Shown: positions 40,979 through 64,000 of the stretch, one piece after another
Numbering within the stretch: the stretch's first letter is position 1
Layout: the number at the start of each line of letters is the position of its first letter
Notes under the pieces: generated by a model
Database searches by the model: none
What the model was told of the DNA's origin: nothing
Seen by the model: only the letters and a program-made list of their open reading frames with translations
Made by a program: the position numbers and the translations under genes
From: Clostridia bacterium
Lineage (GTDB): Bacteria; Bacillota; Clostridia; Christensenellales; Borkfalkiaceae
Reading direction: 5' to 3'
Assembly: GCA_017621735.1 (NCBI GenBank)
Contig: JAGASM010000027.1
Span: 1-64,000 of the forward strand
Length of the DNA stretch: 64,000 nt

Positions 40979-40991
40979 GGAGGGGAGAACC

Positions 40992-42023: not shown

Positions 42024-42050
42024 AATTAAAAAAATTTTGGAGGAAAAGTT

Positions 42051-45452: not shown

Positions 45453-45472
45453 CTATCGCTTACGGTAAAACT

Positions 45473-45494: not shown

Positions 45495-45515
45495 ATATAC
45501 CGAAAGGAGTAAAGC

Positions 45516-47069
45516 ATGAACTTCAAAAAACGGTTATGCAAAACATTCGCCGTGTTGGGGGCGTGTATGTTGCTTGCAGGGGTTGTCGTATCGTTTCCTG
45601 CGACAAACGTTTCGGCACAAGCTGTTACGAGCGAGGAAAAGACGATCGATATGTACCTGATCGCGGGGCAGAGCAATGCGGCGGGGTATTCTTCCAAGGG
45701 GAGAAAGCTGGACGGCGTGTTCGAGAACGTGAGCTACGCGGGCGAGGTGGACAGATACCGTTCAAACGGCAACGCTTCGCAGAGTTATCTCGAATATCCC
45801 TTTCAGTCCGCGGTCAAAGAGGGGTTGGGCAGAGCATCGGGTTTTGTCGGTCCCGAATACGGAATCGCCGAAAAACTCAATGAAAAATATAAAGGCGGTC
45901 ACAAAGCGCTCGCGTTCAAGTCGGCCGCTGGCGGCACGAGTATAAGAGGAAACCAAATCGCAGGACAGAACGGCGATTTCGGAAACTGGTGTTCGCGTTC
46001 CCAATGGGGCGGCGGTTCTGTGAGTGTGTCTTCGCCTATGGGCGTGCAGTATCAGCGTTTCGTGGATAATTTTACGAGCGTGTATACCCAGCTCACCGAG
46101 CACGGCTACACCGTAAAGGTGCAAGGCATGGCGTGGATGCAGGGTGAAGCCGATCTGGACGCGCTGCAGGAATACGGCACGCTGTTGGAGGCGTTTATCA
46201 CCGATATAAGAGCCGACCTTATTGCGGTTACGGGTGACGACACGCTTTCTTCCATGCCTTTCGTGATCGGCGAAATCGCGACCTCGTTTGCCAACGCAAA
46301 CAATCCTCAGGTACCGCCGTTTATCGAAGTACAGCGTTCGGTTGCCCAAAAGATGGATAACGTTTATACGGTGGCGACGGACGATCTTATCATCGTCGAT
46401 ACGGACGGTACGGTGGTGGGGAGCGATGAGTATCACTTTACCAAACAGGACCAACGAATTTTAGGCAACCGCTTCGGCGACGTGCTGTTGCAAAACGCCC
46501 GTTGGGACGATGCTTACGTAAGCACGAGTGCGGGCGGAACGATCGAACAGGAGTTCAATGACGACAAGACCGAACTCACGATTACGGTGCAGGCGGACGA
46601 GGGCTACGTTTTGAAATCGCTTACGTTCGACGGCAGAAACGTAACGGCGCAGGTGCAAAACGGCAAATACGTGGCGCAAAATCCCCGCAAGGGCGTAACG
46701 GCGGAAGCGGTGTTCGAGCGCGCGAAAGCGTCGTTTGAAATTGCATACGAATACGATGCGGCGCAGGGCAGCGTGCAGGGCGCAACTTCTGCGGAAGAGG
46801 GGAGCGCGCTCACCGTAACGGTAACGCCCGCCGAGGGATACGAGGTCGAAAGCGTGAAGTTCGGCGAAACGGCATTAACGTTTGCAGACGGAAAATATAC
46901 GCTCGAAAGCGTAACGGCATCGGGAACGGTAAAGGTAGTATTCAGTAAACAGAAAACTTCGGACGGCTGCGGTTCATTGATCGGCGGCGCGGCGGTAGGA
47001 ACAGTATTCGGCATAGCGGCAATTTCGGTTGCGGCTGGACTTATTGTCAGAAAGAAAAGAATTAAATAG
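45516..47069 (+). CDS. Secreted SASA-type carbohydrate acetylesterase
   Basis: 517 residues, signal peptide to about residue 31 (NVSAQA). The SGNH-like SASA domain shows YLIAGQSNAAGYS (nucleophile Ser), SAAGGTSIRG, VKVQGMAWMQGEADLDALQ and the C-terminal catalytic DEYHFT (Asp/His). Two repeats of a beta module follow (EGYEVESVKFGETAL and similar). A C-terminal TM (about 488-510) with a KKRIK tail keeps it on the surface. SASA enzymes remove O-acetyl groups from sialic acid, xylan or rhamnogalacturonan. In this locus rhamnogalacturonan deacetylation is the likely role (inference). Confidence 0.85.
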   Translation: MNFKKRLCKTFAVLGACMLLAGVVVSFPATNVSAQAVTSEEKTIDMYLIAGQSNAAGYSSKGRKLDGVFENVSYAGEVDRYRSNGNASQSYLEYPFQSAVKEGLGRASGFVGPEYGIAEKLNEKYKGGHKALAFKSAAGGTSIRGNQIAGQNGDFGNWCSRSQWGGGSVSVSSPMGVQYQRFVDNFTSVYTQLTEHGYTVKVQGMAWMQGEADLDALQEYGTLLEAFITDIRADLIAVTGDDTLSSMPFVIGEIATSFANANNPQVPPFIEVQRSVAQKMDNVYTVATDDLIIVDTDGTVVGSDEYHFTKQDQRILGNRFGDVLLQNARWDDAYVSTSAGGTIEQEFNDDKTELTITVQADEGYVLKSLTFDGRNVTAQVQNGKYVAQNPRKGVTAEAVFERAKASFEIAYEYDAAQGSVQGATSAEEGSALTVTVTPAEGYEVESVKFGETALTFADGKYTLESVTASGTVKVVFSKQKTSDGCGSLIGGAAVGTVFGIAAISVAAGLIVRKKRIK

Positions 47070-47090
47070 CGAGAAAAATTCAGGCGAAGG

Positions 47091-47118
47091 CAGGGCGGCT
47101 TAGTTGCCGCCCTGTTTT
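47091..47118 (+). terminator. Terminator after the esterase gene
   Basis: A 9-bp stem CAGGGCGGC / GCCGCCCTG with loop TTAGTT and T4. It may end the secreted-gene transcript or leak into the cytoplasmic enzyme genes. Confidence 0.7.
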
Positions 47119-47134
47119 CAAAAAGGAAAGGAAT

Positions 47135-49075
47135 ATGGATAAAATCTATTTGGGCGCGGCGTACTATCCCGAACTGTGGGACGAAGAGGAACTCGAAAAG
47201 GATATTGCGCGCTGCAAAGAAGTCGGCGTGAACTGCTTGCGAATAGGCGAATTCGCTTGGGAAAAAATGGAACCCGAAGAAGGTGTTTTCGATTTGGAGT
47301 GGCTCATGCGAGTAGTGGATAAGTTATACGAAAACGGAATTTCGACCGTTTTGTGCACGCCCACGGCGACTCCGCCGCGATGGATGCTCAATAAATACCC
47401 CGAAATGCGCATGGTTATGCACGATTTGGTGCGTGCGGACGTTTCTTCGCGCTGTCACGTGTGCAAGACCTCGCCCGTTGCGCGCGAAAAGAACCGCCTT
47501 ATCGTTGCTGAGCTTGCAAAGACGTTCGCGGGGCACAAGGGCGTCATCGGTTGGCAGATAGATAACGAATTGTTTCCGTATTCCGAGGGGTGCTATTGCG
47601 AAAACTGCAAGCGCGCGTTCAGTACATATCTGCAAGATAAATTCGGCACGACGGAAAAACTCAACAAGGCGTGGGGTATGGCGCGCTGGTCTTTAAGCTA
47701 TTCTTCGTTTGAAGAAATCGAGCCGCCGTATCCGAAACAGTGGCGGCATCCGTCTCTCAGGAAAGCATGGCGGGATTTTCAGTGCGCGCAAATTAAAAGC
47801 TACGCGGAAGAACAGGCGGAAATTTTACATAACTACGGCTGTGAAAACGTGGGCACGAATATGATGCAGCACAATTCGCTCTCCTATTATCATCTCAATG
47901 AAAAGTTGGACGTTGTGCAGTATAACCATTACGACACTGCCGAGCGGTTGCCGGATACGGCGTTTGCCTACGATTTCGTGCGGAGCATCAAAAACAAACC
48001 GTTCTGGATCATGGAAACGCAGGTGGGCTGGAACGGCAGCGAATACGCGGAAAGCGGCTATCGCCCCGTGGGGAATTGCTACGCAAATACTTGGCTTCCC
48101 GTTGCAAAGGGGGCTCAGATGAATTTATATTGGCTGTTTCGCGCGCATCCCAACGGGCATGAGATAGGGCACGGCGCGCTGTATTCTTCGGCGGGAAGAA
48201 GCTACCGCGTAAGCGAAGAGGTAAAACAGGCGGCAGAAGATTTCAAAAATTGCGAAGAATTTTTAACGAAAACATGCGTTAAAAGTAAAATCGCATTACA
48301 CTATTCGAGTACGGCATATAACGATTTGGAATGCGCGCCGCTTCTCAAAAATTTTAACTATCGTGAAACGCTGATTAAGAGATACTACGCGGCATTCCGC
48401 CATTATAATTTGGACGTTATCGACACGCAGCATGATTTGAAAGACTATGAGGTGATCGTATCTCCCTTTCTTGCGACCGCAGACGAAAACGGTTTTAAGG
48501 GACGCATAACGGAGTGGGTGAAAGAGGGCGGAACATGGATCGTGGGACCGATGAGCGATATCATGGACGAGAATGTGAAGAAGTTCACACACGCGCCGTA
48601 TAGCTTTTTGGAAGAACTTGCGGGCGTGTATACGAAATACCAAAAGCCGCTCGATAACGACATGTTCAAGGCGCAGTGGACGAACGGCGAATGTGCCGTG
48701 AGTATGTGCTACGACGCGTACGAGTGTAACGAGGGCACAAAGAGCCTTGCGCATTACGTGGCGGGAGAATTCGCGCCGCTTTCGGTAATTACCGAACGGA
48801 AGGTAGGCAAGGGCAGTGTCATCCTGGTCGGGAGCGTCCTTTCGCAAGGGGATATTTTGCGGCTTGTGGACCGCGCGCCCATTTCCGAAGCGAGCGGAAA
48901 CATAATTCTTACCGAGCGCACGGGCGAACAAAACGGGATTATCGCCGTGGAGACAGAAAATAAGAGCGGTTACGTAATCCTTAAAGGCGAATATATCGAC
49001 CTAATCACGGGCAAGACTTTTTCGGAAAAAATCGAATTTCAGCCATATCAAGTAAGGGTAATGAAAAAAATATGA
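47135..49075 (+). CDS. GH42 beta-galactosidase
   Basis: 646 residues, no signal peptide, so cytoplasmic. TIM barrel with LGAAYYPELWDEEELEKDI, LRIGEFAWEKMEP, acid/base Glu145 in WQIDNELFPYSEGCYCENC (with a Cys cluster that binds zinc in GH42 trimers) and nucleophile Glu294 in WIMETQVGW. The trimerisation and C-terminal beta domains follow. GH42 enzymes release galactose from galactan or galacto-oligosaccharides. It overlaps the GH3 gene by 4 bp. Confidence 0.93.
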   Translation: MDKIYLGAAYYPELWDEEELEKDIARCKEVGVNCLRIGEFAWEKMEPEEGVFDLEWLMRVVDKLYENGISTVLCTPTATPPRWMLNKYPEMRMVMHDLVRADVSSRCHVCKTSPVAREKNRLIVAELAKTFAGHKGVIGWQIDNELFPYSEGCYCENCKRAFSTYLQDKFGTTEKLNKAWGMARWSLSYSSFEEIEPPYPKQWRHPSLRKAWRDFQCAQIKSYAEEQAEILHNYGCENVGTNMMQHNSLSYYHLNEKLDVVQYNHYDTAERLPDTAFAYDFVRSIKNKPFWIMETQVGWNGSEYAESGYRPVGNCYANTWLPVAKGAQMNLYWLFRAHPNGHEIGHGALYSSAGRSYRVSEEVKQAAEDFKNCEEFLTKTCVKSKIALHYSSTAYNDLECAPLLKNFNYRETLIKRYYAAFRHYNLDVIDTQHDLKDYEVIVSPFLATADENGFKGRITEWVKEGGTWIVGPMSDIMDENVKKFTHAPYSFLEELAGVYTKYQKPLDNDMFKAQWTNGECAVSMCYDAYECNEGTKSLAHYVAGEFAPLSVITERKVGKGSVILVGSVLSQGDILRLVDRAPISEASGNIILTERTGEQNGIIAVETENKSGYVILKGEYIDLITGKTFSEKIEFQPYQVRVMKKI

Positions 49076-51225
49076 ACATAAAAGAATTGAAAAAGTTAGT
49101 ATCCGATATGAGTTTGGAAGAAAAAGCGTTGCAATTAACGCAGTATCCCGTATATGAATTGGACGAGAAAACGGAGGCTGTAGTAACAGGCTTGTGCGAT
49201 TTGGGCGGAATAGACCGCGAGGTACTATGGCGCACGGGCACGATTTTGAATGCGCCTAACGGTGAAACGGCGCAGTCGATCCGCAAGACGCGTCGGGGAA
49301 AAGGGATCGCCGACCCGTTCCCGTTCATGCTCGACGTGATTCACGGTTACAGAACGATTTATCCCGTGCCTCTTGCTATGGCGTGTACGTTTAACACGGC
49401 ACTCATAGAGGACTGCGCGGAGCTTGCCGCAACCGAGGCGAGCTGCGACGGCGTGGACGTTACCTTTTCGCCCATGGTCGATTTGGGTCGGGACGCGCGC
49501 TGGGGCAGAGTGATGGAAGGCGCGGGCGAAGACCCTTATTGGAGCGGTGAAGTCGGCAAGGCGATGATCCGCGGCTATCATAGGGGCGGGATCGCCTGCT
49601 GCGTAAAACATTTTGCGGGTTACGGCGCCGCCGAGGCGGGCAGAGAGTACAACACGACGGATATTTCCGAGCGGAATTTGCGCGAGTATTATCTGCGGGC
49701 GTACCGTGCGTGCCTCAAAGAACAGCCCGAGATGTTCATGAGTTCGTTTAACCTCTTGAACGGCAAGCCGATTTTGGGGCATAAAGAAATCATGCTCGAT
49801 CTGTTGCGCAAGGAGTGGGGATTTAACGGCGTTGTTATTTCCGACTTCGGCGCGGTGGAGGAACTGTACGAACACGGTTATTGCGAAACGGGCAGGGACT
49901 GCGCGCGCGTTGCGATCGAGAGCGGGCTCGATATCGAAATGGGTTCGTCGGTTTATGCAAGCTATCTTCCCGAACTTGTCCGCACGGGCGTTGTATCGGA
50001 AGAACGGCTCGACGAAGCGGTATTGCGGGTATTGGAACTCAAAAACAAGCTGGGTATGTACGAAAATCCCGACCGTTTTACCGATATTCAAAAACGAGAC
50101 GAAGTGACGCTTTCGGAAAGCGGGCGTGCTCTTTCGCGCAGAGCCGTGGAAGAGGGGAGCGTACTGTTAAAAAATGACGGTGTGTTGCCACTCAAAGAAA
50201 GTGCAAAGATTGCGCTCGTCGGACCGTTTGCAGACGAGCATGAAATTATCGGCAACTGGGCGGGAAAAGGGCGCATCGAAGAGAGCGTTACCGTAAAAGA
50301 GGGCGTCGAAAGTTTGTTGCAAAAAAACGTGCCGTATGAGCGCGGTTGTTCGTGGAAATTGTTCGAAACGGACGAAAGCGGATTCGAAGAGGCAGAACAT
50401 ATCTGCGCGCAAGCCGATATGATCGTGGCGTGCGTGGGCGAACACATGATGAACTCGGGCGAGGCGCATTCCCGCGCCGACATCCGTATTCCCGAAATAC
50501 AGCGTAAATTCATCATGCGGCTGCATGAACTCGAAAAACCTCTTGTGCTCGTCGTATTCGGCGGCAGACCGCTTGGATTGAGCGAAATCGAAGAGTTTGC
50601 CGACGCGATTTTATACGTTTGGCAGCCGGGGACGGAAGGCGGTAACGGGATCGCAAACTTGCTCTACGGTAAAGCAACTCCCTGCGGAAAGACGGTGATG
50701 AGTTTTCCGCGCTCATCGGGGCAGTGTCCGATCTACTATAACTGCTTTACGACGGGCAGACCCAAAAAACAGGATATGCCTTCGGCATTGAGCGGCGAAG
50801 AATGGCGCACGGGTTACGACGACGAATATAATTCTCCGCTCTATCCTTTCGGCTACGGGTTGTCGTATACCGAATTCGAGTATTCGGATTTTAAGCTGTC
50901 TGCTGCGAAGATGAAGCGCGGCGAAAAAATCGTAGCGAGCGTAAAGTTGAAAAACGTCGGAAAACGTGACGGATACGAAACGGCGCAGTGGTATATACAC
51001 GACTTATTCGCTTCGATCGTGCGTCCCGTGAAAGAACTGAAAGGATATGAAAAAATCTTTTTGAAAGCTGGGGAAGAAAAACGCGTATATTTTGAAATTA
51101 CAGAAGAAATGCTAAAATTTTATACGGACGGCGGGAAATATGCGGCTGAAACGGGCGCGTTCGAGCTGTACGTCGGCGGCAATTCCCGCGACTGTCTGAA
51201 AACAAACTTTGAACTTGTTGATTGA
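49072..51225 (+). CDS. GH3 beta-glycosidase
   Basis: 717 residues, start overlapping the GH42 stop (ATGA). The TIM barrel has PVPLAMACTFNTALIEDCAEL, FSPMVDLGRDARWGRVMEGAGEDP, CVKHFAGYGAAEAGREYN and nucleophile Asp258 in VVISDFGAVEEL. An alpha/beta sandwich (VLLKNDGVLPLKESAKIALVGPFAD) with the usual acid/base loop and a fibronectin-III-like C-terminal domain follow (VKLKNVGKRDGYETAQWYI). No signal peptide, so cytoplasmic. Specificity among beta-glucoside, xyloside and arabinoside cannot be read. Confidence 0.93.
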   Translation: MNIKELKKLVSDMSLEEKALQLTQYPVYELDEKTEAVVTGLCDLGGIDREVLWRTGTILNAPNGETAQSIRKTRRGKGIADPFPFMLDVIHGYRTIYPVPLAMACTFNTALIEDCAELAATEASCDGVDVTFSPMVDLGRDARWGRVMEGAGEDPYWSGEVGKAMIRGYHRGGIACCVKHFAGYGAAEAGREYNTTDISERNLREYYLRAYRACLKEQPEMFMSSFNLLNGKPILGHKEIMLDLLRKEWGFNGVVISDFGAVEELYEHGYCETGRDCARVAIESGLDIEMGSSVYASYLPELVRTGVVSEERLDEAVLRVLELKNKLGMYENPDRFTDIQKRDEVTLSESGRALSRRAVEEGSVLLKNDGVLPLKESAKIALVGPFADEHEIIGNWAGKGRIEESVTVKEGVESLLQKNVPYERGCSWKLFETDESGFEEAEHICAQADMIVACVGEHMMNSGEAHSRADIRIPEIQRKFIMRLHELEKPLVLVVFGGRPLGLSEIEEFADAILYVWQPGTEGGNGIANLLYGKATPCGKTVMSFPRSSGQCPIYYNCFTTGRPKKQDMPSALSGEEWRTGYDDEYNSPLYPFGYGLSYTEFEYSDFKLSAAKMKRGEKIVASVKLKNVGKRDGYETAQWYIHDLFASIVRPVKELKGYEKIFLKAGEEKRVYFEITEEMLKFYTDGGKYAAETGAFELYVGGNSRDCLKTNFELVD

Positions 51226-51233
51226 GGTGAAGA

Positions 51234-53261
51234 ATGAGCAATGAAAGAAAACTGCCCGCATATCCGTTATTCGTAAAAGACCCGAATTTTTCGATTTGGA
51301 GCGTCACGGAAGAGTTGAACAAAAGCAATCCCCAAACGTGGTGGGGCGAAGAAAAGCGGATTTACGGTTTTTTGAAAACGCACGGCAAGACGTATTGTTT
51401 TTTCGGGAACGGCGCAGATTTTTTCGCGTGCGGAGTTCTGAACGCCGAGCAGACGGGATTGGAGATTACGGCGTTTACGACCGATTACATGTTTCGCGCA
51501 GGGGAAACGGCGTTGCGCATAAAATTCGTTTCGCCTCTGCCGCCTGACGACTTAACGCTTACGGCGATGCCCGTTTGTTATATGGAGTATGAAATCGAGG
51601 GCGACAAAGACGCCGAGCTTTCTTTATTCGTAAGCCGCGACGTAGCGAGCAACGCATGCAACCAAGAGCGCGGCGTGCGCGGTGGCGTTATAAAATGCGA
51701 GGGCTTCGAGAGTGCCTTTTTCGGCTTGAGAAAGCAACAGCCGCTTTCCAACAACGGTGATCTTATCGGCGCGGATTGGGGATATTGGTATTTGTCCGGC
51801 GAAGAGAGTTTTGTTCTCGACGAAACCGATCTTGCCGCTTATCTCGCGTGCGGAAGCAAGCAATTTACGAATGCAAAAGAAGAACGGTATCTCGGTACTT
51901 TCAATTACGCGCAAAAGGGAGTTGTTTTGCTGGGTTACGACGAGGGCGTTTCCATCGACTATTTCGGCGATTATCGCAAAGGTTATTACTTGCAGGATCA
52001 TACGATTTTGGAAGCGTTGCAAACGGTATGGCTCGAATACAAAAAAATAGGCGGACGGCTTACCGCCTTCGACGAGGATCTGACAGAGCGGGCAAAATCT
52101 TTCGGAAAAGATTATTACGCTATTCTCTGCGCCGCATTACGGCAAACCATGTCTGCGCATAAGCTTGTAAAAGACGGAGAGGGAAATCTTTTATTTTTAT
52201 CCAAAGAATGCGGTTCTAACGGCTGTATCGCCACGGTAGACGTAAGTTATCCGTCCGTACCGCTGTTCTTGCTTTATAACACCGAGCTTGTAAAGGGCAT
52301 GATGCGCCCGATTGTGAAGTTTGCGCGAATGCCCGTCTGGAAGTACGATTTCGCTCCGCACGACGCAGGCACGTATCCGCATTGTTGCGGACACGTGTAT
52401 GGGTTCAACCATGCTGAGAATAAGTTTTTGGGCAACCTCATTCAAAAGAACAACAAAGAGACTTGGTTTCCGTTTTACCTTTTGCCTGCCGATTATGACG
52501 TTTACGATTTGAAAGACCAAATGCCCGTAGAGGAGTGTGCCAACCTTCTGATTATGCAATATGCTTGCTTCTCCCGCGACGGGGATATATCTTTCTTTGC
52601 GGAGAATTTCGATTTGGCGGAAAAGTGGGTGGAATATCTTATAAAATACGGTTTGAAACCCGAAGAACAACTTTGCACCGACGACTTTGCGGGGCATTTG
52701 AAAAACAATCTTAACTTGGCAATCAAGGCGACGGCGGGCATTGCGTGCTATGCCGAGCTCGCCGGGGCGGCGGGAAAGGCAAATCTTGCAGAACAATACC
52801 GTAAAGAGGCGGAAGCGTTTGCAAAAGAAATTACCGACTTTGCAAAAAAATTCTCGCATATGCCGATTTCGTGGGATTCGGACGAGAGTACGTTCTCGTT
52901 GAAGTATAATTTTGCGTTCGATAAACTGCTGGGGTTAAACTTGTTTCCGCAGGAAGTATTCGAGAAGGAAATCGACTGCTATTTGAAAAAGATAAACAAA
53001 TTCGGCGCACCGCTTGACAATCGGGAGACGTACACAAAAAGCGATTGGCTGTGTTGGGTTGCTTCTCTTACGGACGATCGGGAAAAGCGCGATAAACTGT
53101 TGGCATCAATTGCAAAATTTTTGAAAGAATCGCCTGATCGTGTGCCGTTTTCCGATTGGTATCAGACGGATGCGGGCTCATACATTCATTTTCGTGCTCG
53201 CAGCGTACAGGGCGGATGCTTTATTTTATTGTTAAAAAGTGATGAATATGTTGAAAGGTAA
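51234..53261 (+). CDS. GtaA-like protein (DUF5127/DUF4965), putative glycosidase
   Basis: 675 residues, no signal peptide, GAGGTG before the ATG. An N-terminal beta domain (KDPNFSIWSVTEELNKS, FFGNGADFFACGVLNAEQTG) precedes an (alpha/alpha)6 barrel-type C-terminal half: SNGCIATVDVSYPSVPLF, WKYDFAPHDAGTYPHCCG, AGIACYAELAGAAG, FSDWYQTDAGSYIHFRARSVQGG. This matches the glutaminase-A-like family that fungi and Bacteroides use; in glycan loci its members are thought to be glycosidases. Known enzymatic detail is sparse. It is placed between GH3 and GH78 in the same operon. Confidence 0.75.
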   Translation: MSNERKLPAYPLFVKDPNFSIWSVTEELNKSNPQTWWGEEKRIYGFLKTHGKTYCFFGNGADFFACGVLNAEQTGLEITAFTTDYMFRAGETALRIKFVSPLPPDDLTLTAMPVCYMEYEIEGDKDAELSLFVSRDVASNACNQERGVRGGVIKCEGFESAFFGLRKQQPLSNNGDLIGADWGYWYLSGEESFVLDETDLAAYLACGSKQFTNAKEERYLGTFNYAQKGVVLLGYDEGVSIDYFGDYRKGYYLQDHTILEALQTVWLEYKKIGGRLTAFDEDLTERAKSFGKDYYAILCAALRQTMSAHKLVKDGEGNLLFLSKECGSNGCIATVDVSYPSVPLFLLYNTELVKGMMRPIVKFARMPVWKYDFAPHDAGTYPHCCGHVYGFNHAENKFLGNLIQKNNKETWFPFYLLPADYDVYDLKDQMPVEECANLLIMQYACFSRDGDISFFAENFDLAEKWVEYLIKYGLKPEEQLCTDDFAGHLKNNLNLAIKATAGIACYAELAGAAGKANLAEQYRKEAEAFAKEITDFAKKFSHMPISWDSDESTFSLKYNFAFDKLLGLNLFPQEVFEKEIDCYLKKINKFGAPLDNRETYTKSDWLCWVASLTDDREKRDKLLASIAKFLKESPDRVPFSDWYQTDAGSYIHFRARSVQGGCFILLLKSDEYVER

Positions 53262-55641
53262 ATTTATCGGAGTGGCAGAAACAACGAACGTGTTCGTCGT
53301 TGAAAAGAGGTTTGTTGTAAAATCGGATGAGCATGCGGTCTTGCGCGCCACGGCATTGGGGCTTTATTTTGCGGAACTCAACGGAATGCGTGTCGGTGAG
53401 TCTTATTTAACGCCCGGGTGGAGCTCATACAATAAAATGCTTCAAGTGCAAGAATACGATGTTTCCGCGTTTTTGAAAGACGGTGAAAACATATTGTCGC
53501 TCACCCTTGGCGAGGGTTGGTTTTGCGGCGGCTTGACCTGGGAAAAGAAACGGAATATTTACGGGGAACAATGCGCCGTCTGTGCCGATTTGGTGTTTTC
53601 GGATAAAATAATTTCTACGGACGAGAGCTGGACGGCGAGAGAGAGCGTGATCCGCGAAAGCGGCATTTACGACGGCGAGAAACAGGATTTTACGGCGAAA
53701 TTAAAGCCGCTCGCCGTGTGCGAAGTTGCGTTCGATAAAAGTGTGCTTGTGCCGCAGATTTCCGAACCCGTGCGAAACATCGGAAGATTATCCGTGAAAG
53801 AGCTGATACATACGCCCGCGGGCGAACTCGTCTACGATTTCGGGCAGAACATGGCGGGCGTGGTGGAAATAAAGACGCCCGAGGATTTTGAGGGAACTCT
53901 CACGTTGCAGTTCGCCGAAATCTTAGTGAACGGGAATTTTTACACCGATAACCTGCGTTCTGCCAAAGCGACGGATATGTTTACGGCAAAAGGCTCAAAA
54001 ACGCTTTGCCCCGAATTTACCTTCCACGGTTTCCGTTATATGAAACTAACGGGTGCGGAACTTCCCAAAGAAAATATAACGGCAATCGTGCGGCATACAG
54101 ACATGAAACGGACGGGACATATACATACGAGCAATGTACGGTTCAACCGTTTAATGGAAAATGTGGTGTGGGGACAAAAGAGCAATTTTGTAGACGTTCC
54201 TACAGACTGTCCGCAACGGGACGAACGTTTGGGCTGGACGGGGGACATCAATGCCTTCTGTACGACGGCGGCGTATAACTACGATATCCGTTTGTTTATG
54301 AAAAAATGGCTTGCCGACCTTCGGAACGAACAAGCGGAAAACGGTGAAATTCCACATGTTTGTCCGGACGTTTTAGGGGAAAATAATTACGGAACCGCCG
54401 CGCTGTGGTGCGATGTTATCGTGATGGCGCCATGGAAACTGTATCGTATGTACGGCGATATTTCTTTTCTCTCGGATAATTATGCCGCTATGCAAAAATA
54501 CATGCATGCATATGAGAAGAATGTGGAAAACGGTCTTGTCGTACACGGATTCAATTACGGCGACTGGCTTGCATTAGACGGGGAAATATTAAAAAACAGT
54601 ATTCACGGCAGAACAGACTCCGTATTTCTTGCGAGCGCGTTTTATCTAGAATGTCTGCGGCTGGTTGCGGAAACGGCAAAGGCACTCGGCGATCAATCGG
54701 AAAGGGAATACCGCGACAAATACGAAAAAACCTTGGCTGCGATCCGCTATGAATACATTACACCGAGCGGACGGCTTGCAAGCGACACGATGACGGCGCA
54801 GGCGTTGGCACTTTGTTTTCATATCGTTCCCGAGGAGCAGAGAACGACGGTAGCGGAACAGCTCAACAAAAACGCCTATTCGTATAACCACCGAGTGACG
54901 ACGGGGTTCGCGGGTACGCCTTATTTGTTGTTTGCTCTTTCGGACAATGGCTATTTTGATACGGCTTGCCGCATTTTAATGAATAACGGCTACCCCGGCT
55001 GGCTGTACGAGGTAGATATGGACGCGACGACGGTGTGGGAACGCTGGAACAGCTTAATGCCCGACGGCACGCCCAATCCAGACGGCATGAACAGCTATAA
55101 TCATTATGCTTACGGTAGCGTGATGGAGTTCGTTTACCGCAGGATCGCGGGGATAGAAACGGCGGAGGCAGGATTCAAAACGATTAGAATTGCGCCTAAT
55201 CCCTGCAAAGGACTTGCCTGTGTTAAAGCGGAGTATGAGAGCGTACGAGGCAAAATTATTTCGGGATACGAACAAAGGGACGGCAAGATTAAATTTATGG
55301 CGGAAATTCCGAACGGCGCGCAAGCAGAAATCGTACTGCCGAACGAACAGCCGATAATGGTTGCGGGCGGCAAATACGAATACGAACGCACATGGGAGAA
55401 CCTCGACGGCGATCCGTTTACGCCCGAAAGCTATGTGACGGAAGTGTTTGATAACCCTAAAGCGGTAAAGGCGTTCAACGAGGTGTTCGGGGACATCTTC
55501 ACGGGGAGCGAAATCGCTTGGATGAAAAACGAACCGAAAACGCTCGGCTTTATGGCATGGTTCCGTGATTCTGAAAAGAAGATGAGACTTGCCGACTTTC
55601 CTGAAATGCTGAAACGCGCGAATAAATTATTTTTACAGTGA
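53242..55641 (+). CDS. GH78 alpha-L-rhamnosidase
   Basis: 799 residues. Starts GTG 53239, ATG 53242 and ATG 53248 are all possible; none has a clear ribosome site, and it overlaps the previous gene, so coupling is likely. The family's N-terminal beta domain (ATALGLYFAELNGMRVGESYLTPGWSSYNKM) precedes the catalytic barrel, with the general acid in CPQRDERLGWTGD (about 324-336) and FNYGDWLALDG. It cleaves terminal alpha-L-rhamnose, feeding rhaA/B/D in the same island. It has no signal peptide, so oligomers must be imported first. The C-terminal extension (DGDPFTPESYVTEVFDNP) is about 80 residues longer than the basic fold. Confidence 0.92.
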   Translation: MNMLKGKFIGVAETTNVFVVEKRFVVKSDEHAVLRATALGLYFAELNGMRVGESYLTPGWSSYNKMLQVQEYDVSAFLKDGENILSLTLGEGWFCGGLTWEKKRNIYGEQCAVCADLVFSDKIISTDESWTARESVIRESGIYDGEKQDFTAKLKPLAVCEVAFDKSVLVPQISEPVRNIGRLSVKELIHTPAGELVYDFGQNMAGVVEIKTPEDFEGTLTLQFAEILVNGNFYTDNLRSAKATDMFTAKGSKTLCPEFTFHGFRYMKLTGAELPKENITAIVRHTDMKRTGHIHTSNVRFNRLMENVVWGQKSNFVDVPTDCPQRDERLGWTGDINAFCTTAAYNYDIRLFMKKWLADLRNEQAENGEIPHVCPDVLGENNYGTAALWCDVIVMAPWKLYRMYGDISFLSDNYAAMQKYMHAYEKNVENGLVVHGFNYGDWLALDGEILKNSIHGRTDSVFLASAFYLECLRLVAETAKALGDQSEREYRDKYEKTLAAIRYEYITPSGRLASDTMTAQALALCFHIVPEEQRTTVAEQLNKNAYSYNHRVTTGFAGTPYLLFALSDNGYFDTACRILMNNGYPGWLYEVDMDATTVWERWNSLMPDGTPNPDGMNSYNHYAYGSVMEFVYRRIAGIETAEAGFKTIRIAPNPCKGLACVKAEYESVRGKIISGYEQRDGKIKFMAEIPNGAQAEIVLPNEQPIMVAGGKYEYERTWENLDGDPFTPESYVTEVFDNPKAVKAFNEVFGDIFTGSEIAWMKNEPKTLGFMAWFRDSEKKMRLADFPEMLKRANKLFLQ

Positions 55642-55706
55642 GAAAAGTATGTTGTTGTTTTACATTTACTACGGCGAACCGATATCCGATCCCTACTACA
55701 CAGTTT

Positions 55707-55769
55707 TACGCTGACCGCACTCTCAAAGCAGACCTTGAAAAATTGAAAAGAATATTTGAAAGGAGATAG
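55707..55769 (+). pseudogene. GH2 C-terminal fragment 1
   Basis: Bases 55707-55769 encode YADRTLKADLEKLKRIFERR-stop. The same tail occurs at 56371-56454 and at the end of 59845-60243, where more of a GH2 enzyme survives. The rest of the gene is gone; 55642-55706 is unrelated sequence. Confidence 0.75.
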
Positions 55770-55810
55770 AAATTAGATAATGAAAGAGACTGACTACTTT
55801 ACAATTGATA

Positions 55811-56350
55811 ATGAAGTATTTATTAACAGTAAATCTAATGAGAATACGGATGAATCAGAAGGCAACAAACGAGCTTGTGTTAAGGTCTGAAGAATTTAAA
55901 AGAAAGTGCCAGACAAAAGAGTTCATAGATATAAAGGGAAATGTAATTGCCGCTATATGTATGTTTATATTTATGTCTGGTTTGCTGTTTGCCGGAATAT
56001 TGCTTACAATTTTACTTGATTGGGCTTGTTTCATGGTTATTATTGTTGCTGCAATATTTATAATTATTTGGGTTGTCGTGTATATGTGCAATATCAAAAA
56101 GTTACGTTCGTTAGAGCGCATAATTGATCGCTCGGAAATTTGTGTCGGTAAAGTTACCAGAACTAAAATCCAATTCTTTGGTAGTAGTTTAGAGTATAAG
56201 TTTTTTAGTGCTGGAAAAGAATTTAACCGTTCAGCTAAGGTAAGCAACAAAATATTTCGCAGGTGTATTCGAAATCCGTATGTATTCATTTTATTTGATG
56301 AAACGACGATGAAGTCTTTCCCTGTAAGATTGTTTATCAAAAAAGTTTAA
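55811..56350 (+). CDS. Small two-TM membrane protein, function unknown
   Basis: 179 residues from ATG 55811 (in-frame alternatives: 55805 TTG, 55838 and 55850). Two strong TM helices lie at about 50-72 and 78-98 (VIAAICMFIFMSGLLFAGIL; WACFMVIIVAAIFIIIWVVV); then a soluble part (about 80 residues) with no known motif. A second start at 55780 in another frame gives a natural-looking 36-residue N-terminus (MKETDYFTIDNEVF ...). A single frameshift could therefore split a longer original gene. It is more AT-rich than its neighbours and is flanked on both sides by GH2 tails, so it looks like an insertion. Confidence 0.55.
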   Translation: MKYLLTVNLMRIRMNQKATNELVLRSEEFKRKCQTKEFIDIKGNVIAAICMFIFMSGLLFAGILLTILLDWACFMVIIVAAIFIIIWVVVYMCNIKKLRSLERIIDRSEICVGKVTRTKIQFFGSSLEYKFFSAGKEFNRSAKVSNKIFRRCIRNPYVFILFDETTMKSFPVRLFIKKV

Positions 56351-56370
56351 ATTGAGAAACAAGGTGTCCG

Positions 56371-56454
56371 CAGGAAGTGAACGGACTTTTGTATTCAGAC
56401 CGCACGCCCAAAGCAGACCTTGAAAAACTCAAAAAGATTTATGAAAATAAATAA
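56371..56454 (+). pseudogene. GH2 C-terminal fragment 2
   Basis: Reads QEVNGLLYSDRTPKADLEKLKKIYENK-type tail to TAA at 56452. It aligns with the end of the larger remnant at 59845-60243 (QEVNGLLYADRTPKADLK...). rhaB starts 10 bp later, so it may hold the ribosome region of rhaB. Confidence 0.8.
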
Positions 56455-56463
56455 GACAACATT

Positions 56464-57774
56464 ATGAACCATTATTTAGCGATAGACATAGGGGCGTCGA
56501 GCGGGCGGCATATCGTCGGTTGGCGCGAAGGTAACGAAATAAAAACGGACGAGGTGTTTCGCTTTCCGAACGGGACGAAGAAACAAAATAACTGTCTTGT
56601 ATGGGATACAGACAGCCTTTTCGATAACATAAAGAAAGGGATAAAAGCGGCTATAAAAAAATACGGGCAAATCAAATCTCTTGCAATCGACACATGGGGA
56701 GTAGATTATACGCTCGTAAATAGAACGCGGACGCTGATACCTTGCTTTGCGTATAGGGACGGACGCACAAATGCGGTAATAGATGAAGTTCACGGCAAAG
56801 TACCGTTTGAAAAGCTGTATGAAAGAACGGGGATACAGTATCAGCCGTTTAATACGATTTATCAGCTGTACGAGGATTGGAAACGGGGCAGATTGGAAGC
56901 AGTAACGGACTTTCTTATGATTCCCGAATACTTAAACTATAAGCTCACGGACGTGAAGATGCACGAATTCACCAACGCCACAACAACGGGCTTGGTAAAC
57001 GCGCGTACAGGCAAATACGACAGGGAAATCATAAACGCGCTTGGCTTGCCCGTGCACTTATTTGGCAAACTGTATCAACCGGGAACGAGCGTCGGAATGT
57101 TAAAGCCCGAAATTGCCGCAGAGGTAGGCGGTCAGGCGGAAATTATCCTGTGCGCTTCTCACGATACGGCGAGCGCGGTAGAGGGTATTCCTATGACCGA
57201 GAACAGCCCGTATATTTCCTCGGGAACGTGGTCCCTTTTGGGCTTGAAAGTGCCGAAGGCAATCACGGACGAAAGCAGCCGCAAAGCCAACTATTCCAAC
57301 GAGGGCGGAGTGGGGTATGTCAGATACCAAAAGAACATTATGGGTATGTGGGTGGTCAACCGCTTGCGCGACGAGCTTTGCCCCGAAAAGCCTTTCCCGC
57401 AAATCGTAGAGGAGGCAAGGCAAAGCACGTTCAACGACTATGTTGATGTGAACGACAGCGCGTTTCTTGCCCCGAAGAGCATGAAAGCGGCGTTCGACGA
57501 TTATCTGAAAAATGAGACAATTAAACCTCAAAATGAAAGTGATTATTTCCGCTGTGCATTTATAAGTCTTGCAATCAGTTATATGAACGCCTTGGAAGAG
57601 CTGAAAGCAAACAGCGGCGCGGATTTCGATACGCTGTATATCGTGGGCGGCGGAGCGAAGAATGATTTGCTTAACGAACTGGCGGAGCAAATCTGCAAAA
57701 TCAAAGTAAAAGCGCTGCCGATAGAGGCGACGGCGCTCGGCAATCTCAAACAACAAATCATGCGAGGTGAATAG
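56464..57774 (+). CDS. rhaB: Rhamnulokinase
   Basis: 436 residues. It phosphorylates L-rhamnulose to rhamnulose 1-phosphate with ATP. FGGY-family signatures: YLAIDIGASSGRHIVGW at the N-terminus, SLAIDTWGVDYTLVN, LCASHDTASAVEGIP, YISSGTWSLLGLK and the ATP-site YIVGGGAKNDLLNELAEQI. It ends at IEATALGNLKQQIMRGE, about 30-50 residues earlier than the E. coli enzyme (489), so the C-terminal helix is short; it may still be complete for a Gram-positive form. Its stop is followed by the rhaA ribosome site (GAGGTG within its last codons). Confidence 0.92.
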   Translation: MNHYLAIDIGASSGRHIVGWREGNEIKTDEVFRFPNGTKKQNNCLVWDTDSLFDNIKKGIKAAIKKYGQIKSLAIDTWGVDYTLVNRTRTLIPCFAYRDGRTNAVIDEVHGKVPFEKLYERTGIQYQPFNTIYQLYEDWKRGRLEAVTDFLMIPEYLNYKLTDVKMHEFTNATTTGLVNARTGKYDREIINALGLPVHLFGKLYQPGTSVGMLKPEIAAEVGGQAEIILCASHDTASAVEGIPMTENSPYISSGTWSLLGLKVPKAITDESSRKANYSNEGGVGYVRYQKNIMGMWVVNRLRDELCPEKPFPQIVEEARQSTFNDYVDVNDSAFLAPKSMKAAFDDYLKNETIKPQNESDYFRCAFISLAISYMNALEELKANSGADFDTLYIVGGGAKNDLLNELAEQICKIKVKALPIEATALGNLKQQIMRGE

Positions 57775-57775
57775 A

Positions 57776-59014
57776 ATGTACGAATATGCAAAGAAGGCTT
57801 ATACCGAATACGGTGTTGACGCTGAAGCGGCAATAGAAAAACTTAAAGAGATTCCCGTGTCCATTCACTGCTGGCAGGGGGACGACGTTGTGGGGCTTGA
57901 CGGCGGGGGTGCGGCTTCGGGCGGCATTCAGACAACGGGCAATTACTTCGGCAGAGCGAGAAATTTCGAAGAACTGAAAGCGGATATTCAAAAGGCGTTT
58001 TCGCTCATCCCCGGCAAGAAACGACTGAATCTGCACGCAAGCTACGCAGTCGGCGCGGAAGTTGACAGAGATCGATACGAACCCAAACATTTCGCTCCTT
58101 GGGTGGAATTTGCAAAGGAAATCGGGCTGGACGGAATCGATTTCAACCCGACGATGTTCTCTCATAAGAACGTGAAAGATGGTTTAACCCTTTCTTCGCC
58201 CGACGAAGCGATCCGCAAATTTTGGGTAAGGCATTGTATTGCTTGTCTGCACATTTCGGAATACTTTGCGGACGAGTTCCAAAAGCCTTCGTTAATGAAT
58301 ATCTGGATACCCGACGGCTTGAAGGACGTACCCGCCGACAGATTGACGCCGAGATTGAGACTGAAAGAAAGCCTTGACGAAATTCTCGCCTGCGGTTATG
58401 ACAGGGAAAAAGCAATCGTCGCGGTAGAGAGCAAGGTGTTCGGAATAGGCGTGGAAAGCTATACCGTGGGCAGCAACGAGTTCTACCAAAACTATGCAGC
58501 GAAGAATAATATCTGCTGTCTTTTGGACAACGGACACTATCATCCGCAGGAATACGTTTCGGATAAGATTCCGTCGCTTTTGGCGTTCTACGATAAAGTC
58601 GCTCTGCATGTGACGAGGGGCGTTCGTTGGGATAGCGACCACGTGGTTTTATTCGAGGACGAACTCAAAGAGATTGCAAAGGAAGTCGTAAGAAACGACG
58701 CAACGGATAAGGTGCTGATAGGGCTTGATTACTTCGACGCTTCCATTAACCGCTTGGCGGCGTGGATCGTCGGCGCGAGGAATATGCAAAAGGCGCTCCT
58801 TTGGGCGTTGTTACAGCCTAACGCAAAGCTCAAAGCGTTGCAGAACGAAGGCAACTTTACCGAACTTATGGTCTTGCAGGAAGAACTGAAAACCTTGCCG
58901 TTCGATGCAGCGTGGGCAGAGTATCTGAAACGCCAGAAGGCTGCGGGCGCAGATTGGTTCAACCAAGTCAAAGAATATGAAAACAAAATCTTAAAGAACA
59001 GGAAGCGAGTATGA
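57776..59014 (+). CDS. rhaA: L-rhamnose isomerase
   Basis: 412 residues, the family length (E. coli 419). It interconverts L-rhamnose and L-rhamnulose with Mn2+ in a TIM barrel. Start at ATG 57776, 7 bp after GAGGTG; a GTG at 57767 is inside that site. Signatures: VSIHCWQGDDVVGLDGGGAA, GKKRLNLHASYA, GIDFNPTMFSHKN, AVESKVFGIGVESYTVGSNEFY, CCLLDNGHYHPQEYVSDKI (metal ligands), and VTRGVRWDSDHVV. Order rhaB-rhaA-rhaD, last bases overlapping rhaD. Confidence 0.97.
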   Translation: MYEYAKKAYTEYGVDAEAAIEKLKEIPVSIHCWQGDDVVGLDGGGAASGGIQTTGNYFGRARNFEELKADIQKAFSLIPGKKRLNLHASYAVGAEVDRDRYEPKHFAPWVEFAKEIGLDGIDFNPTMFSHKNVKDGLTLSSPDEAIRKFWVRHCIACLHISEYFADEFQKPSLMNIWIPDGLKDVPADRLTPRLRLKESLDEILACGYDREKAIVAVESKVFGIGVESYTVGSNEFYQNYAAKNNICCLLDNGHYHPQEYVSDKIPSLLAFYDKVALHVTRGVRWDSDHVVLFEDELKEIAKEVVRNDATDKVLIGLDYFDASINRLAAWIVGARNMQKALLWALLQPNAKLKALQNEGNFTELMVLQEELKTLPFDAAWAEYLKRQKAAGADWFNQVKEYENKILKNRKRV

Positions 59015-59841
59015 CAGAACTATTTACAAATATCCCTTTCGTGAAAGAATTAGCGGCAACGGCGGATAATATGTACCGTCTGGGTTGGGACGAGAGAAAC
59101 GGCGGAAACATCAGTTACCTTATTTCCGAAGAAGAAGTTGCGGAATACATGGATATAACGAATGTGCGGCGAGTTATTCCGCTCGGATTTAATGCAAAAG
59201 AACTGATCGGCAAATATTTCCTCGTAACGGGGACGGGCAAGTATTTCAAAAACGTGAACGGTGATCCCGAAACCAATCTCGGCTTATTCCGTATTGCACA
59301 GGACGGGAAGAACGCGGAACTTTTATGGGGCTATGCGGACGGCGGCAAGTTTACGAGCGAGCTTCCGGCACACCTGATGAGCCATATCGAACGCATAAAG
59401 GTCGATCCCGAAAACAGGGTAGTAATGCACTGTCACCCGACGAATTTAGTTGCGATGACTTACGTCCACGAACTCGAAACGAAGGGATTTACGCATACTC
59501 TTTGGCAGATGAGTACGGAGTGTATTGTCGTGTTTCCCGAAGGCGTGGAAGTGCTGCCGTGGATGCTTTGCGGAACGAACGAAATCGGCGTTGCAACGGC
59601 AGAAAAAATGAAATCTGCAAGGGTTGTCGTTTGGGCGATGCATGGTATTTATGGCGCGGGCAAGACTCTCGACGAAACTTTCGGACTCATCGAAACGGTG
59701 GAAAAGGCGGCGCAGATCTATATGCTGATAGGCGACCGTAAGAGAATCAACACGATAAAAGACGAAGATATGGTAAAGCTCGTAGAGTTGTTCGGCGTCA
59801 AATACAGAAAGGATTTCCTTGACTTAAAAAACGGGAGATAA
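59011..59841 (+). CDS. rhaD: Rhamnulose-1-phosphate aldolase
   Basis: 276 residues (E. coli 274). It splits rhamnulose 1-phosphate into dihydroxyacetone phosphate and L-lactaldehyde. Start overlaps rhaA (ATGA). Class II zinc aldolase signatures: RLGWDERNGGNISYL, FLVTGTGKYFKNV, VVMHCHPTNLVAMTYV (zinc His-x-His), the catalytic Glu in the STECIVVFPEGVEVLPW region and WAMHGIYGAGKTLDETFG. It completes the rhamnose route; a lactaldehyde reductase gene is not seen in the island. Confidence 0.97.
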   Translation: MTELFTNIPFVKELAATADNMYRLGWDERNGGNISYLISEEEVAEYMDITNVRRVIPLGFNAKELIGKYFLVTGTGKYFKNVNGDPETNLGLFRIAQDGKNAELLWGYADGGKFTSELPAHLMSHIERIKVDPENRVVMHCHPTNLVAMTYVHELETKGFTHTLWQMSTECIVVFPEGVEVLPWMLCGTNEIGVATAEKMKSARVVVWAMHGIYGAGKTLDETFGLIETVEKAAQIYMLIGDRKRINTIKDEDMVKLVELFGVKYRKDFLDLKNGR

Positions 59842-59844
59842 AAT

Positions 59845-60243
59845 TATGCTTCTCGGCGTGCACGACTACGATTCGGATAAAGCGGAGGACTTTACAAATA
59901 CGCGGACGAACAGTACGACGGGATGCACCCGCAGGGCTTTGCGCTGTTTGCGGACGGGGAGCGGTATGCGAGCGAGCCGGTGCTTTTAACGGAGTTCGGG
60001 GGCAGAGCAATGCAGGCGGACGCAAAAGGCGAGGCATGGGGATACAGCGGCGCTGCGGCGAACGAAGAAGCGTTCTTAAAACAGTTGCAAAGCATTATGC
60101 GCGGCGTATATTCCTGTAATTTTCAGGGGTGCTGCTATACGCAGCTCACCGACGTGCAACAGGAAGTAAACGGACTTTTGTACGCTGACCGGACACCGAA
60201 AGCCGATTTGAAAAGACTGAAAGATATTTTTGAAAATAAGTAA
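59845..60243 (+). pseudogene. GH2 glycosidase remnant, C-terminal 130 residues, frameshifted
   Basis: ATG 59845 opens a frame with LLGVHDYDSDKAED, which a one-base loss near 59895 knocks out of frame. In the next frame it continues YKYADEQYDGMHPQGFALFA, then GERYASEPVLLTEFGGRA (nucleophile-Glu region of GH2), GCCYTQLTDVQQEVNGLLYA and a stop at 60241. GH2 enzymes are about 600-1,000 residues; here the sugar-binding, sandwich and most of the barrel domains are missing. ATG 59845 may be fortuitous. It is the largest of three GH2 tails in the island. No working enzyme can come from it. Confidence 0.8.
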
Positions 60244-60558: not shown

Positions 60559-61008
60559 TGGCAACAATAGAATACAAATTTTCAGACGGTCACATAGAAG
60601 AAATCGAGGTGACGGAAGAGTTCAAAGAAGCATACGAATTTGAACTTGTATTGGAAAATTTATCGACAAAAGGAACGGGCGGGAATTCCTACGAGCCACG
60701 ATTGGTCATTGGATAAAATTATGGATGACGGGATCAATTACGCAGCGAAAAACAATCCTTTGGAATCGGTATTGGAAAAGGAGAAAAAGCGCGAACGATG
60801 GCAGAAGATGTTAGACTGTCTGACCAAAAAACAGCGGGCGGTATATGTTCTGCATAAAAAGGGCTATACCCAACGGCAGATATCAAAGAAATTACATATA
60901 GCGTTGGGCTCGGTGAACGAGCGGTTACAGAACGCCAGAAAAAATATTTTTAAGTTTTTTTTCGGAAAACCCGAACATTTAGCAGTTTTTTGTTCAACGG
61001 ATAAGTGA
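60559..61008 (+). pseudogene. Sigma-70 region-4-like regulator, frameshifted
   Basis: Frame 1 from ATG 60559 (site AGGAGG, start MATIEYKFSDGHIEEIEVTE) runs only to a stop at about 60715. The natural continuation YWKIYRQKERAG, HDWSLDKIMDDGINYAAK and the sigma region-4 helix-turn-helix (LTKKQRAVYVLHKKGYTQRQ, then ISKKLHIALGSVNERLQNARKN) lie in another frame from about 60640 to 61008. One inserted or lost base near 60640-60650 explains this. Such sigma-like genes are common in integrative elements, where they often regulate transfer. Confidence 0.7.
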
Positions 61009-62273: not shown

Positions 62274-62510
62274 ATGAAAAAATATCAAAGCAATGTAAAT
62301 ATGGAACAGTTAATCGGGCTTGAAGTCAAAAGGCTGTCGGAATTATTCGGCAAATCGTTTCTTGATTGCGACGATATCGTAAAAATCACCGGGTTAGGAA
62401 GAGATAATGTTCGCGCTATGATGGACGGATATCATTTTTCCGTAACAAAAATCGGAAAACGGAAAGTGGTCAGCATTTTGGCTTTCGTTACTTGGCAAAT
62501 GGCACAGTAA
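62274..62510 (+). CDS. Excisionase-like HTH protein
   Basis: 78 residues, small and basic, placed 13 bp before the integrase. SFLDCDDIVKITGLGRDNVR-type start of a winged helix (sequence positions about 31-50), then FSVTKIGKRKVVSILAFV (beta wing). This matches excisionase/MerR-like proteins that bend DNA for excision. It could also serve as a regulator of int. It has no stop or frame damage. Confidence 0.7.
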   Translation: MKKYQSNVNMEQLIGLEVKRLSELFGKSFLDCDDIVKITGLGRDNVRAMMDGYHFSVTKIGKRKVVSILAFVTWQMAQ

Positions 62511-62523: not shown

Positions 62524-63577
62524 ATGGCACGAAAAAAGACGGTAAAAAAGAAGCGTTCCAACAACGAAGGAACTATTGTGCAATTAGCGAACGGCAAACG
62601 GCGGGCGCAAATCAGTTTAGGATATAAAGGAAACGGAACTCGAAACAGACCTTTGGAAGTATTCAATACGCAACAGGAAGCAATCGCCTGGAAAAATAAA
62701 ATGAAGGTCATGGCGGAAGAATACGGTGCAGAAAGCATTGTCGATACAAGCGGTATATTCGTTCCGAAATATCATCAATGGCTACTGAATGAAAAGAAAG
62801 GGGAAGTATACTCTCCGCAGTTCAAAACGATTATGCGCCATTATACAAACCATATCAAACCTTATTTTCGGAAATACAAAATCAAAGAAATGACGAAGAG
62901 CGTTATGCAGGAGTTTTTTCGGAAATTGGAAAGAGAGGAAGTCGGACGTGAAACGCGGAGGAAAATAAAAGGCGAATTGCGGCAACTCGCCTATGCGCAA
63001 TCCTGTGGACGGGGTTAAAATCGAAACGGTAAAAAAGGTCGAAGAGATCGATCCGCAAGCATTGCTTAATCAGGAAGAGTATAAAGCCGTGCCAAAGGAG
63101 TTGCGCAGTCGATTTTTAAAAGCGTTGGATGAAGAAAAAAACAGTCCCTTCTTGAAACCGTTGTGTTATCTGATGTATTTTGCAGGAAATAGAGTCGGGG
63201 AGGCGCTGGCTTACCAATGGAAAGATTTCAATTTTGAGCGAAGATTTTTCTTTGTTTATAAATCCCTTACGAAAGAGTACGAATTCGATGAACAGGGCGA
63301 AGTCATAGGAACGGGGAAAACAGTTCTCAAACCGCCGAAATCCAAGGAAGGAATTCGTCCACTTCCGTTGTTGGATATTTTGTACGAGGTTATGATGGAA
63401 TGGTATGATTATAGGAAAGCGCAGGAAAAGGTATCGGGATTATCCTTTACGGGACCAGACGATTATGTATTTTCGACAAATCAAGGTAAAATGCGTACGG
63501 AAGGGGGGACATATACAATATTCCGTAGATTTTTAGTTATAAAACCAAAAGGAGAAAATAATGATTTTAACATTTGA
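62524..63577 (+). pseudogene. Tyrosine integrase, frameshifted and cut off before the catalytic end
   Basis: Two frames: 62524-63018 (SAM-like N-terminal DNA-binding part: basic start, AQISLGYKGNGTRNRPLEVF, core-binding region HIKPYFRKYKIKEM) and 62993-63577 (catalytic domain: RNPVDGVKIETVKK, LMYFAGNRVGEALAYQWKDF with the first Arg, and PPKSKEGIRPLPLLD with the hairpin Lys). They join near 62990 with a shift and probably a small loss. After IFRRFLVIKPKG the frame stops at 63577; the H-x-x-R, H/W and Tyr nucleophile boxes are missing. This is a dead integrase. Its position beside the island end and Xis-like gene fits its former role at tRNA-Thr. Confidence 0.85.
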
Positions 63578-63650: not shown

Positions 63651-63896
63651 CGTAAATTGTACGCAGATTACGGTCCGTCGTACTTTTCTTTTGATTATGT
63701 TTTATCTATATGCTCTCTGATTCCGAAAGCCGTTTTTTAAACTTACACGTCTGCGACTTTCCGCAAAGGGAAGTAAAGAAAACTAAATAAAAAAAGAATT
63801 GTTAGCAGAGGCGTTTCTTATTGACGAACCGCAAAATAAAGTGGTTTAATATAGTAAAAGTAGAAAGAAAATACTGCCTAAATAGATTTAATTCTA
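63651..63896. other. Intergenic, no gene seen
   Basis: AT-rich, no ORF with a ribosome site; the right end motifs follow. No tRNA fragment is visible up to 64000. Confidence 0.55.
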
Positions 63897-63952
63897 TTTT
63901 AGTGGCACACGCATTGGTACACGGGATTGCTTCAAGTACAATATATTGTGTT
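63897..63952 (-). repeat. Right inverted end motifs of the island
   Basis: TTTTAGTGGCACAC (63897-63910) and CAATATATTGTGTT (63939-63952), the reverse complements of the left motifs in mirror order. A partial third copy of the ATATATTG motif lies near 63975. The window ends 48 bp past the last motif. Confidence 0.75.
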
Positions 63953-64000
63953 ATTCCTATAATATAAACACTATATATTGTTGTTTTTGGGATTGCCATC

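Follow-up and report, generated by a model that had tools for sequence, protein, structure and literature searches.

An island of sugar utilization genes in a gut bacterium of the Clostridia very probably recombined with the anticodon loop of the host tRNA-Thr(GGT) gene, split this gene, supplied a replacement for it and is now immobile without a helper. We analyzed a window of 64,000 nt, corresponding to bases 1-64000 of the 115,184-base contig C19 in an assembly of 1.78 Mb (43 contigs, 95.6% complete), and numbered the right end of the island, which lies beyond the window, on the same contig. The split tRNA-Thr target and the carried whole tRNA-Thr were absent from an earlier, sequence-only reading of the window because the right end falls outside it.

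The host tRNA-Thr gene, here called A, has left an orphan 3′ half at the left end of the island (33930..33976, minus strand; recognized by ARAGORN on the joined ends). This half ends in an anticodon-loop core at 33966-33976, reading CCTTACCAAGG on the plus strand, and the anticodon-region repeat of the carried tRNA spans 33958-33976. At the other end, the orphan 5′ half of A, with its core, lies on the minus strand at contig positions 64474-64513. A complete tRNA-Thr(GGT), here called B, was found by ARAGORN at contig positions 64336-64411, likewise on the minus strand and beyond the window; it sits 62 bp from the orphan 5′ half, inside the right end of the island. The island has a core-to-core length of 30,508 bp (30.5 kb), and the 14 bp common to both ends, CGTCCTTACCAAGG, form the anticodon arm. 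When the flanks were joined at the core, ARAGORN folded a tRNA-Thr, and either end alone gave nothing. These ends show a core in the anticodon arm, a host gene halved between them and a complete tRNA inside the right one.

A search of the window with the T-arm sequence of B gave no match, because the left half comes from another tRNA than B. Intact genes at 2-3 mismatches from the joined sequence occur in 4 of the 103 genomes of the genus. No empty site in the same neighborhood was found among the 24 loci listed with the gene right of the tRNA (own locus included), and among these only the own locus has a tRNA-Thr inside the available flanks. Immediately inside the left core, the left island end (33977..34100, plus strand) contains two GTGTGCCA-like sites (34058 and 34070), for which an arm-type role would be a guess. 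To the left of the island, the 3′ end of an ABC ATPase gene is followed by a tandem copy of itself, with 123 of 126 bases identical (33590-33853).

Cargo and mobility of the island

The cargo was annotated by a Pfam scan that left out a 1133-aa ORF at 42051 and very small ORFs. An AraC-type regulator and, for a sugar-type ABC transporter, a solute-binding protein and two ABC permeases (34499..39091, plus strand) are followed on the same strand, in the region 39104..60240, by GH43, SASA esterase, GH42, GH3, a GtaA-like protein, a GH78 alpha-L-rhamnosidase, an FGGY kinase, an L-rhamnose isomerase, a class II aldolase and unnamed ORFs. A small protein with sigma-70 region 4 is encoded at 60640..61008 (plus strand; PF08281, 7.8e-11). 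By its predicted gene content, the island is one of rhamnose and other sugar utilization. Phage structural genes were not found among the Pfam-scanned island ORFs (the 42051 ORF excluded), apart from one holin-like match below the cut-off. Relaxase or conjugation genes, as expected of an ICE or IME, were likewise absent from the scanned ORFs (the 42051 ORF and very small ORFs excluded).

A Xis-like gene and an integrase gene lie near the right end. An intact gene for a protein of 78 aa (62274..62510, plus strand) has no Pfam match and was named Xis-like by its size and position; a homologue adjoins the integrase in 20 of the 20 loci scanned, several of which are overlapping duplicates (E 1e-30 to 4e-21), and the statement of the sequence-only reading that this gene is intact was thus borne out. 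The integrase gene at 62524-63577 consists of two overlapping ORFs on the plus strand, 62524-63018 and 62993-63577, which together match the N-terminal SAM-like domain of tyrosine integrases (PF14659) and part of the catalytic domain. The PF00589 match of the second ORF is partial and just below the cut-off. These matches and one to phrog_1 place the gene, broken in the window copy, in the tyrosine family.

The search of the genome for a similar intact integrase, suggested by the sequence-only reading, was run. Three other PF00589 matches in the assembly scored 83, 24 and 17 bits against the integrase-family HMM, compared with 162 and 74 bits for the two window pieces. When the proteins of this genome were searched with the C-part, this gene alone was returned at E 0.001. 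A scan of genome contigs with the same part gave no relative; relatives were obtained by a search across genomes. With no other integrase of the family detected in the assembly, movement of the island would need a helper recombinase, probably from another element; the sequence-only reading had arrived at the same need. With the integrase frame and the catalytic C-terminus lost, exit would be possible only with such a helper, and a loss of the right end by anything but exact excision would probably deprive the cell of the one tRNA-Thr(GGT) it has. The island appears stuck in place.

It is possible, though we consider it unlikely, that the island is still mobile in trans through the integrase of a related tRNA-Thr element entering the cell. 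Open-frame relatives with 35-43% identity are present in the same family, three of them beside the same split-tRNA layout, and the Xis-like gene and the cores of the island are intact. Against this stand the lack of any such integrase in the assembly and the rearranged right end. Mobility in trans is compatible with the preferred explanation, in which the island depends on a helper.

Pairing of the tRNA halves

In the window genome (G000), the host tRNA is rebuilt at neither junction, and both halves are orphans. The acceptor strands of the host halves, GCTGCTG and CAGCAGC, match each other, and B has GCTGTTA and TAACAGC. A classical reconstruction of the tRNA, the first reading considered, was rejected because of this acceptor pairing.

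We looked for orphan 3′ halves in 18 genomes and 20 further genomes or records (G415 is apparently G135 again) and found them in 14 of these 38; none was detected in G004, G257 and G377, and G202 has an orphan 3′ half alone. Nine genomes are informative, because the acceptor stem of the 5′ half is not that of the whole tRNA. In eight of them (G000, G181, G323, G389, G400, G402, G412 and G413) the two orphan halves form a full stem with each other, and in none of the nine does the orphan 3′ half do so with the 5′ half of the whole tRNA. The sole orphan 3′ half found in G401 pairs with neither its 5′ half nor B. For G389, the alternative pairing with B would leave a wobble pair, and the half in G413 was counted as an orphan because the sequence upstream of it has no D-arm. 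G130, G414 and G416 are uninformative, since both stems are equal. G398 and G403 were left out of the count because they contain whole-looking tRNAs with mismatched acceptor strands. At L172 (G398:C8) and L193 (G403:C52), the mismatched 5′ and 3′ strands look as if different halves had recombined at the anticodon core.

A single acceptor match is weak evidence because acceptor variants are few. Most weight is carried by the rarer stems of G000, G400 and G402 and by the nested case of G191, where two successive 5′ halves on one contig match two 3′ halves on another in nested order; the whole tRNA of G191 falls beyond a contig end.

These pairings bear on the view that the locus arose by ordinary integration into the anticodon loop, such that the host 5′ half and the island 3′ half make up the whole tRNA, with the 3′ orphan as the displaced fragment and the additional 5′ half as an old scar. 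tRNA islands in general follow this scheme, according to passages in the Islander paper (PMC4383910) and in a review, and the present locus would be scored accordingly by a search that looks for a tRNA with a 3′ fragment downstream. We nevertheless regard it as very unlikely here, given that the orphan halves pair with each other as described, that G191 has two nested matching pairs on two contigs, and that a tRNA-like 5′ half precedes the spacer at 42 of the 47 distinct sites described below. If the preferred reading, a split host gene and a carried tRNA, is correct, mapping by a tRNA plus a displaced 3′ fragment would put the crossover in the wrong tRNA.

Broken integrase and rearranged right end

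The sequence-only reading had described the integrase at 62524-63577 as broken twice, by a frame shift near 62990 and by loss of the H-x-x-R and tyrosine boxes at the 3′ end. Our analysis confirmed both the coordinates and the two lesions. We aligned the gene with seven relatives from six other genomes, whose open frames comprise 418-491 aa from stop to stop. The first ORF holds the N-terminal part up to an out-of-frame deletion near 62985-62998. The distance from a Q residue to an N-P motif is 39 nt (13 codons) in all seven relatives and 13 nt in the window integrase, and the position aligned to this Q is Q in five relatives and D and E in two. The frame is shifted because about 26 nt were lost. 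The second ORF contains the first part of the catalytic domain and stops about two residues short of the H-x-L-R-H box, so that the arginine of box I is retained and the H-x-x-R motif and the tyrosine are gone. Up to contig position 64700, a six-frame search turned up nothing of this missing 3′ region: besides the ORFs themselves, it gave negative-scoring matches alone.

The comparison supports the view that the integrase is dead as annotated. The frame shift by itself could be an assembly error, which would not explain the absence of the whole C-terminus. That the integrase is functional and its frame break an error of sequencing or assembly, as a draft of 43 contigs might suggest, is therefore extremely improbable, since the gene ends before the H-x-L-R-H box regardless of the shift and has no 3′ remnant nearby.

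Between the broken integrase and the tRNA lies a diverged copy of the left island end in inverted orientation, which includes a core and GTGTGCCACTAAAA (63888..64000 and on to contig position 64016, minus strand). Its local alignment score is 71, and none of 200 shuffles exceeded 43. The stretches read of three intact relatives showed no core in inverted orientation. The loss of the 3′ end of the integrase may belong to a rearrangement of the right end, because the inverted copy is present here and no inverted core occurs in those relatives. The description of the end motifs as intact in the sequence-only reading thus holds for the cores, which are present at both ends, and fails for the right end, which is rearranged by the inverted copy. 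As for short repeated motifs, TGGCACACG occurs 15 times in the window against 9.8 expected, a count reached in 7 of 100 shuffles, and TGGCACAC occurs 15 times in L003 versus 7.1 expected, reached in 4 of 200 shuffles; the TGGCACAC-type motif is only mildly enriched.

Probable expression of and need for the carried tRNA

We scanned for promoters with a sigma-70-like consensus only, scored out of 12, and used the 80 bp before B. Promoter-like sites scoring at least 10 of 12 were found upstream of the 5′ half at 18 of the 47 sites and before B at none. The mean scores were 8.8 before the half (7.7 when shuffled) and 7.1 before B (7.3 when shuffled). In the window genome (G000), the 5′ half is preceded by the promoter-like site TTGACT-17-TATACT. 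Downstream of B, a TTTT stretch occurs within 50 nt at 30 of the 36 sites with enough sequence.

B is probably expressed through promoter capture, because promoter-like sites precede the 5′ half and not B. Transcription from the host tRNA promoter would run across the orphan 5′ half and the spacer and reach B, RNase P would trim B out of the read-through transcript, and B would take over the function of the lost host tRNA. As a whole gene, B would also offer a fresh target, so that islands could stack.

In the assembly of the window genome, the anticodon arm (at most one mismatch) was found only in B and in the 5′ half, and B is the only whole tRNA-Thr(GGT) matched by the pattern search of this draft; no spare tRNA-Thr(GGT) was seen with the patterns used. 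B is present as a whole gene in 15 of the 18 family genomes searched. In 14 of these it is the only whole match (at most two mismatches), and G377 has two whole copies, each of them after a half. In the second set, a further whole-looking tRNA-Thr(GGT) occurs in G398, G403 and G416, so the carried copy is not always the sole one. The cell that harbors the present island is probably unable to lose B.

Recurrence of the layout in Clostridia

The same order of half, spacer, whole tRNA and integrase is found beside the integrase relatives of G004, G257 and G377. It was not seen in the stretches read of G139, G191 and G202, and G191 has the layout on another contig. We turned the layout into a pattern in which two tRNA-Thr 5′ parts and their cores stand close together in tandem, and used the reversed pattern as a control. 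In the family, the tandem pattern was found in 17 of 398 genomes (19 sites, 8 of 18 genera), and the control gave no hit; at all 19 sites no 3′ half comes after the first core. A collection of 84,980 species, searched with a pattern that included the absence of a following 3′ half, yielded 39 stretches, the titles of which all name Firmicutes/Bacillota or Clostridia. The same pattern gave one stretch among viral contigs. An order-level scan with a wider distance range gave 17 sites in 15 of 396 genomes, again with no hit for the control. The scans overlap, and the distinct sites number 47, of which 42 have a tRNA-like first half and 39 lead directly into a whole tRNA. ARAGORN detected a whole tRNA-Thr(GGT) at 17 of the 19 family loci and at 36 of the 40 loci of the second and third sets, and the loci without one stop at a contig end. 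A same-family integrase follows B at 14 of the 22 loci with at least 2 kb beyond and is absent in 8, a count in which two places were counted twice and which includes one fragment at a locus end and one weak match.

Several of these loci showed further peculiarities. At L086, L094/L097, L122, L131 and L149, two consecutive 5′ halves precede the next tRNA or the contig end, which we read as stacked insertions. At L131 and L149 the first of the two halves is not tRNA-like. At L131, L141, L146, L149 and L203, what stands before the core as the first "half" bears little or no resemblance to a tRNA 5′ half, and the usual second half comes next. The distances between the core of the crossover and that of the carried tRNA cluster at 77-80, 88-92 and 97-102 bp, in steps of roughly one helical turn. 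Over the seven spacer clusters, helical phasing of this spacing does not reach significance (P about 0.1), which leaves it a hint only. Many spacers of the L079-L095 type have, judged by eye, two overlapping, mutually exclusive hairpins, GGGGT..ACCCC and GCCGAA..TTCGGC.

Two further loci indicate what the module can carry. G004, which by taxonomy belongs to the same genus as the window genome, has beside the integrase ORFs that, read by eye, resemble an AraC-type regulator, a glycosidase and a sugar ABC transporter; farther along the contig are GH36, GH94, GH35, alpha-amylase and PfkB proteins. The viral contig L161 (IMGVR_UViG_3300029268_002483) has the same integrase, the Xis-like gene and the tRNA layout, and on the element side of the tRNA it encodes a tape-measure protein and an Eco47II-type restriction-modification pair. 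By its tape-measure protein, this IMG/VR contig would represent a temperate phage, which the island does not. By its gene content, the predicted integration module also serves a prophage, because L161 shares the integrase and the Xis-like gene and has a tape-measure protein.

A wider generalization, which we hold to be about evenly balanced between right and wrong, would be a widespread clostridial module that is common to metabolic islands and one or more prophages and swaps the host tRNA-Thr for its own promoterless copy, positioned so as to capture the host promoter. Each island would then be the next target, allowing nesting with one working tRNA-Thr, and the tRNA would anchor the right end of dead islands. 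A route by which a dead island may persist is suggested here, since its tRNA would be needed.

Comparison with known systems

Tycheposons were considered as a parallel, and the passages available from a paper that cites them (PMC10872708) contain no tRNA replacement. In the literature, with most subscription papers outside the search, we found no non-phage island that brings a whole replacement tRNA.

In classical tDNA islands, as outlined in parts of the Islander paper (PMC4383910), the target is restored by a tRNA fragment in attP. The present island resembles them in its tyrosine integrase, the crossover in the anticodon loop and the displaced tRNA fragment at the far end. It differs in that both halves are orphaned and a whole tRNA gene is brought along; an attP fragment restoring the target was not found in G000 and seven more of the nine informative genomes.

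The closest counterpart is the tRNA-dependent lysogeny of actinobacteriophages (Guerrero-Bustamante and Hatfull 2024; PMC10865867), which, in the passages concerned, combines a short core, a host tRNA that is not rebuilt and an element tRNA of the same isotype. The island shares the tyrosine integrase, the short core and the unrestored host tRNA, and carries a tRNA-Thr(GGT). That system belongs to temperate phages, whereas here we describe a sugar island in Clostridia plus one prophage contig. Furthermore, the clostridial tRNA lies 37-62 bp inside the junction, has no promoter-like site of its own and takes part in nested stacking, unlike what is described for tRNA-dependent lysogeny. An own promoter has been shown for the tRNA of Fionnbharth (PMC10865867), and none was detected for the carried tRNA in our consensus scan. 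The host tRNA is also replaced by an element-borne one in prophage Lj965 of Lactobacillus johnsonii (PMC10865867), and tRNA substitution is described in passages on Sinorhizobium meliloti prophages (PMC11476347, PMC12429752); these share the replacement of the host tRNA and differ in being prophages of other hosts.

The authors of the 2024 study noted that the prevalence of tRNA replacement outside actinophages calls for more work (PMC10865867), and the layout at 47 distinct Clostridia sites, found with a cargo island and with a prophage contig, speaks to this point. Judged against these systems, what would be new here is the metabolic island as a vehicle, the occurrence in Clostridia, a tRNA at the junction without a promoter-like site and the nesting, while the underlying logic is known from tRNA-dependent lysogeny.
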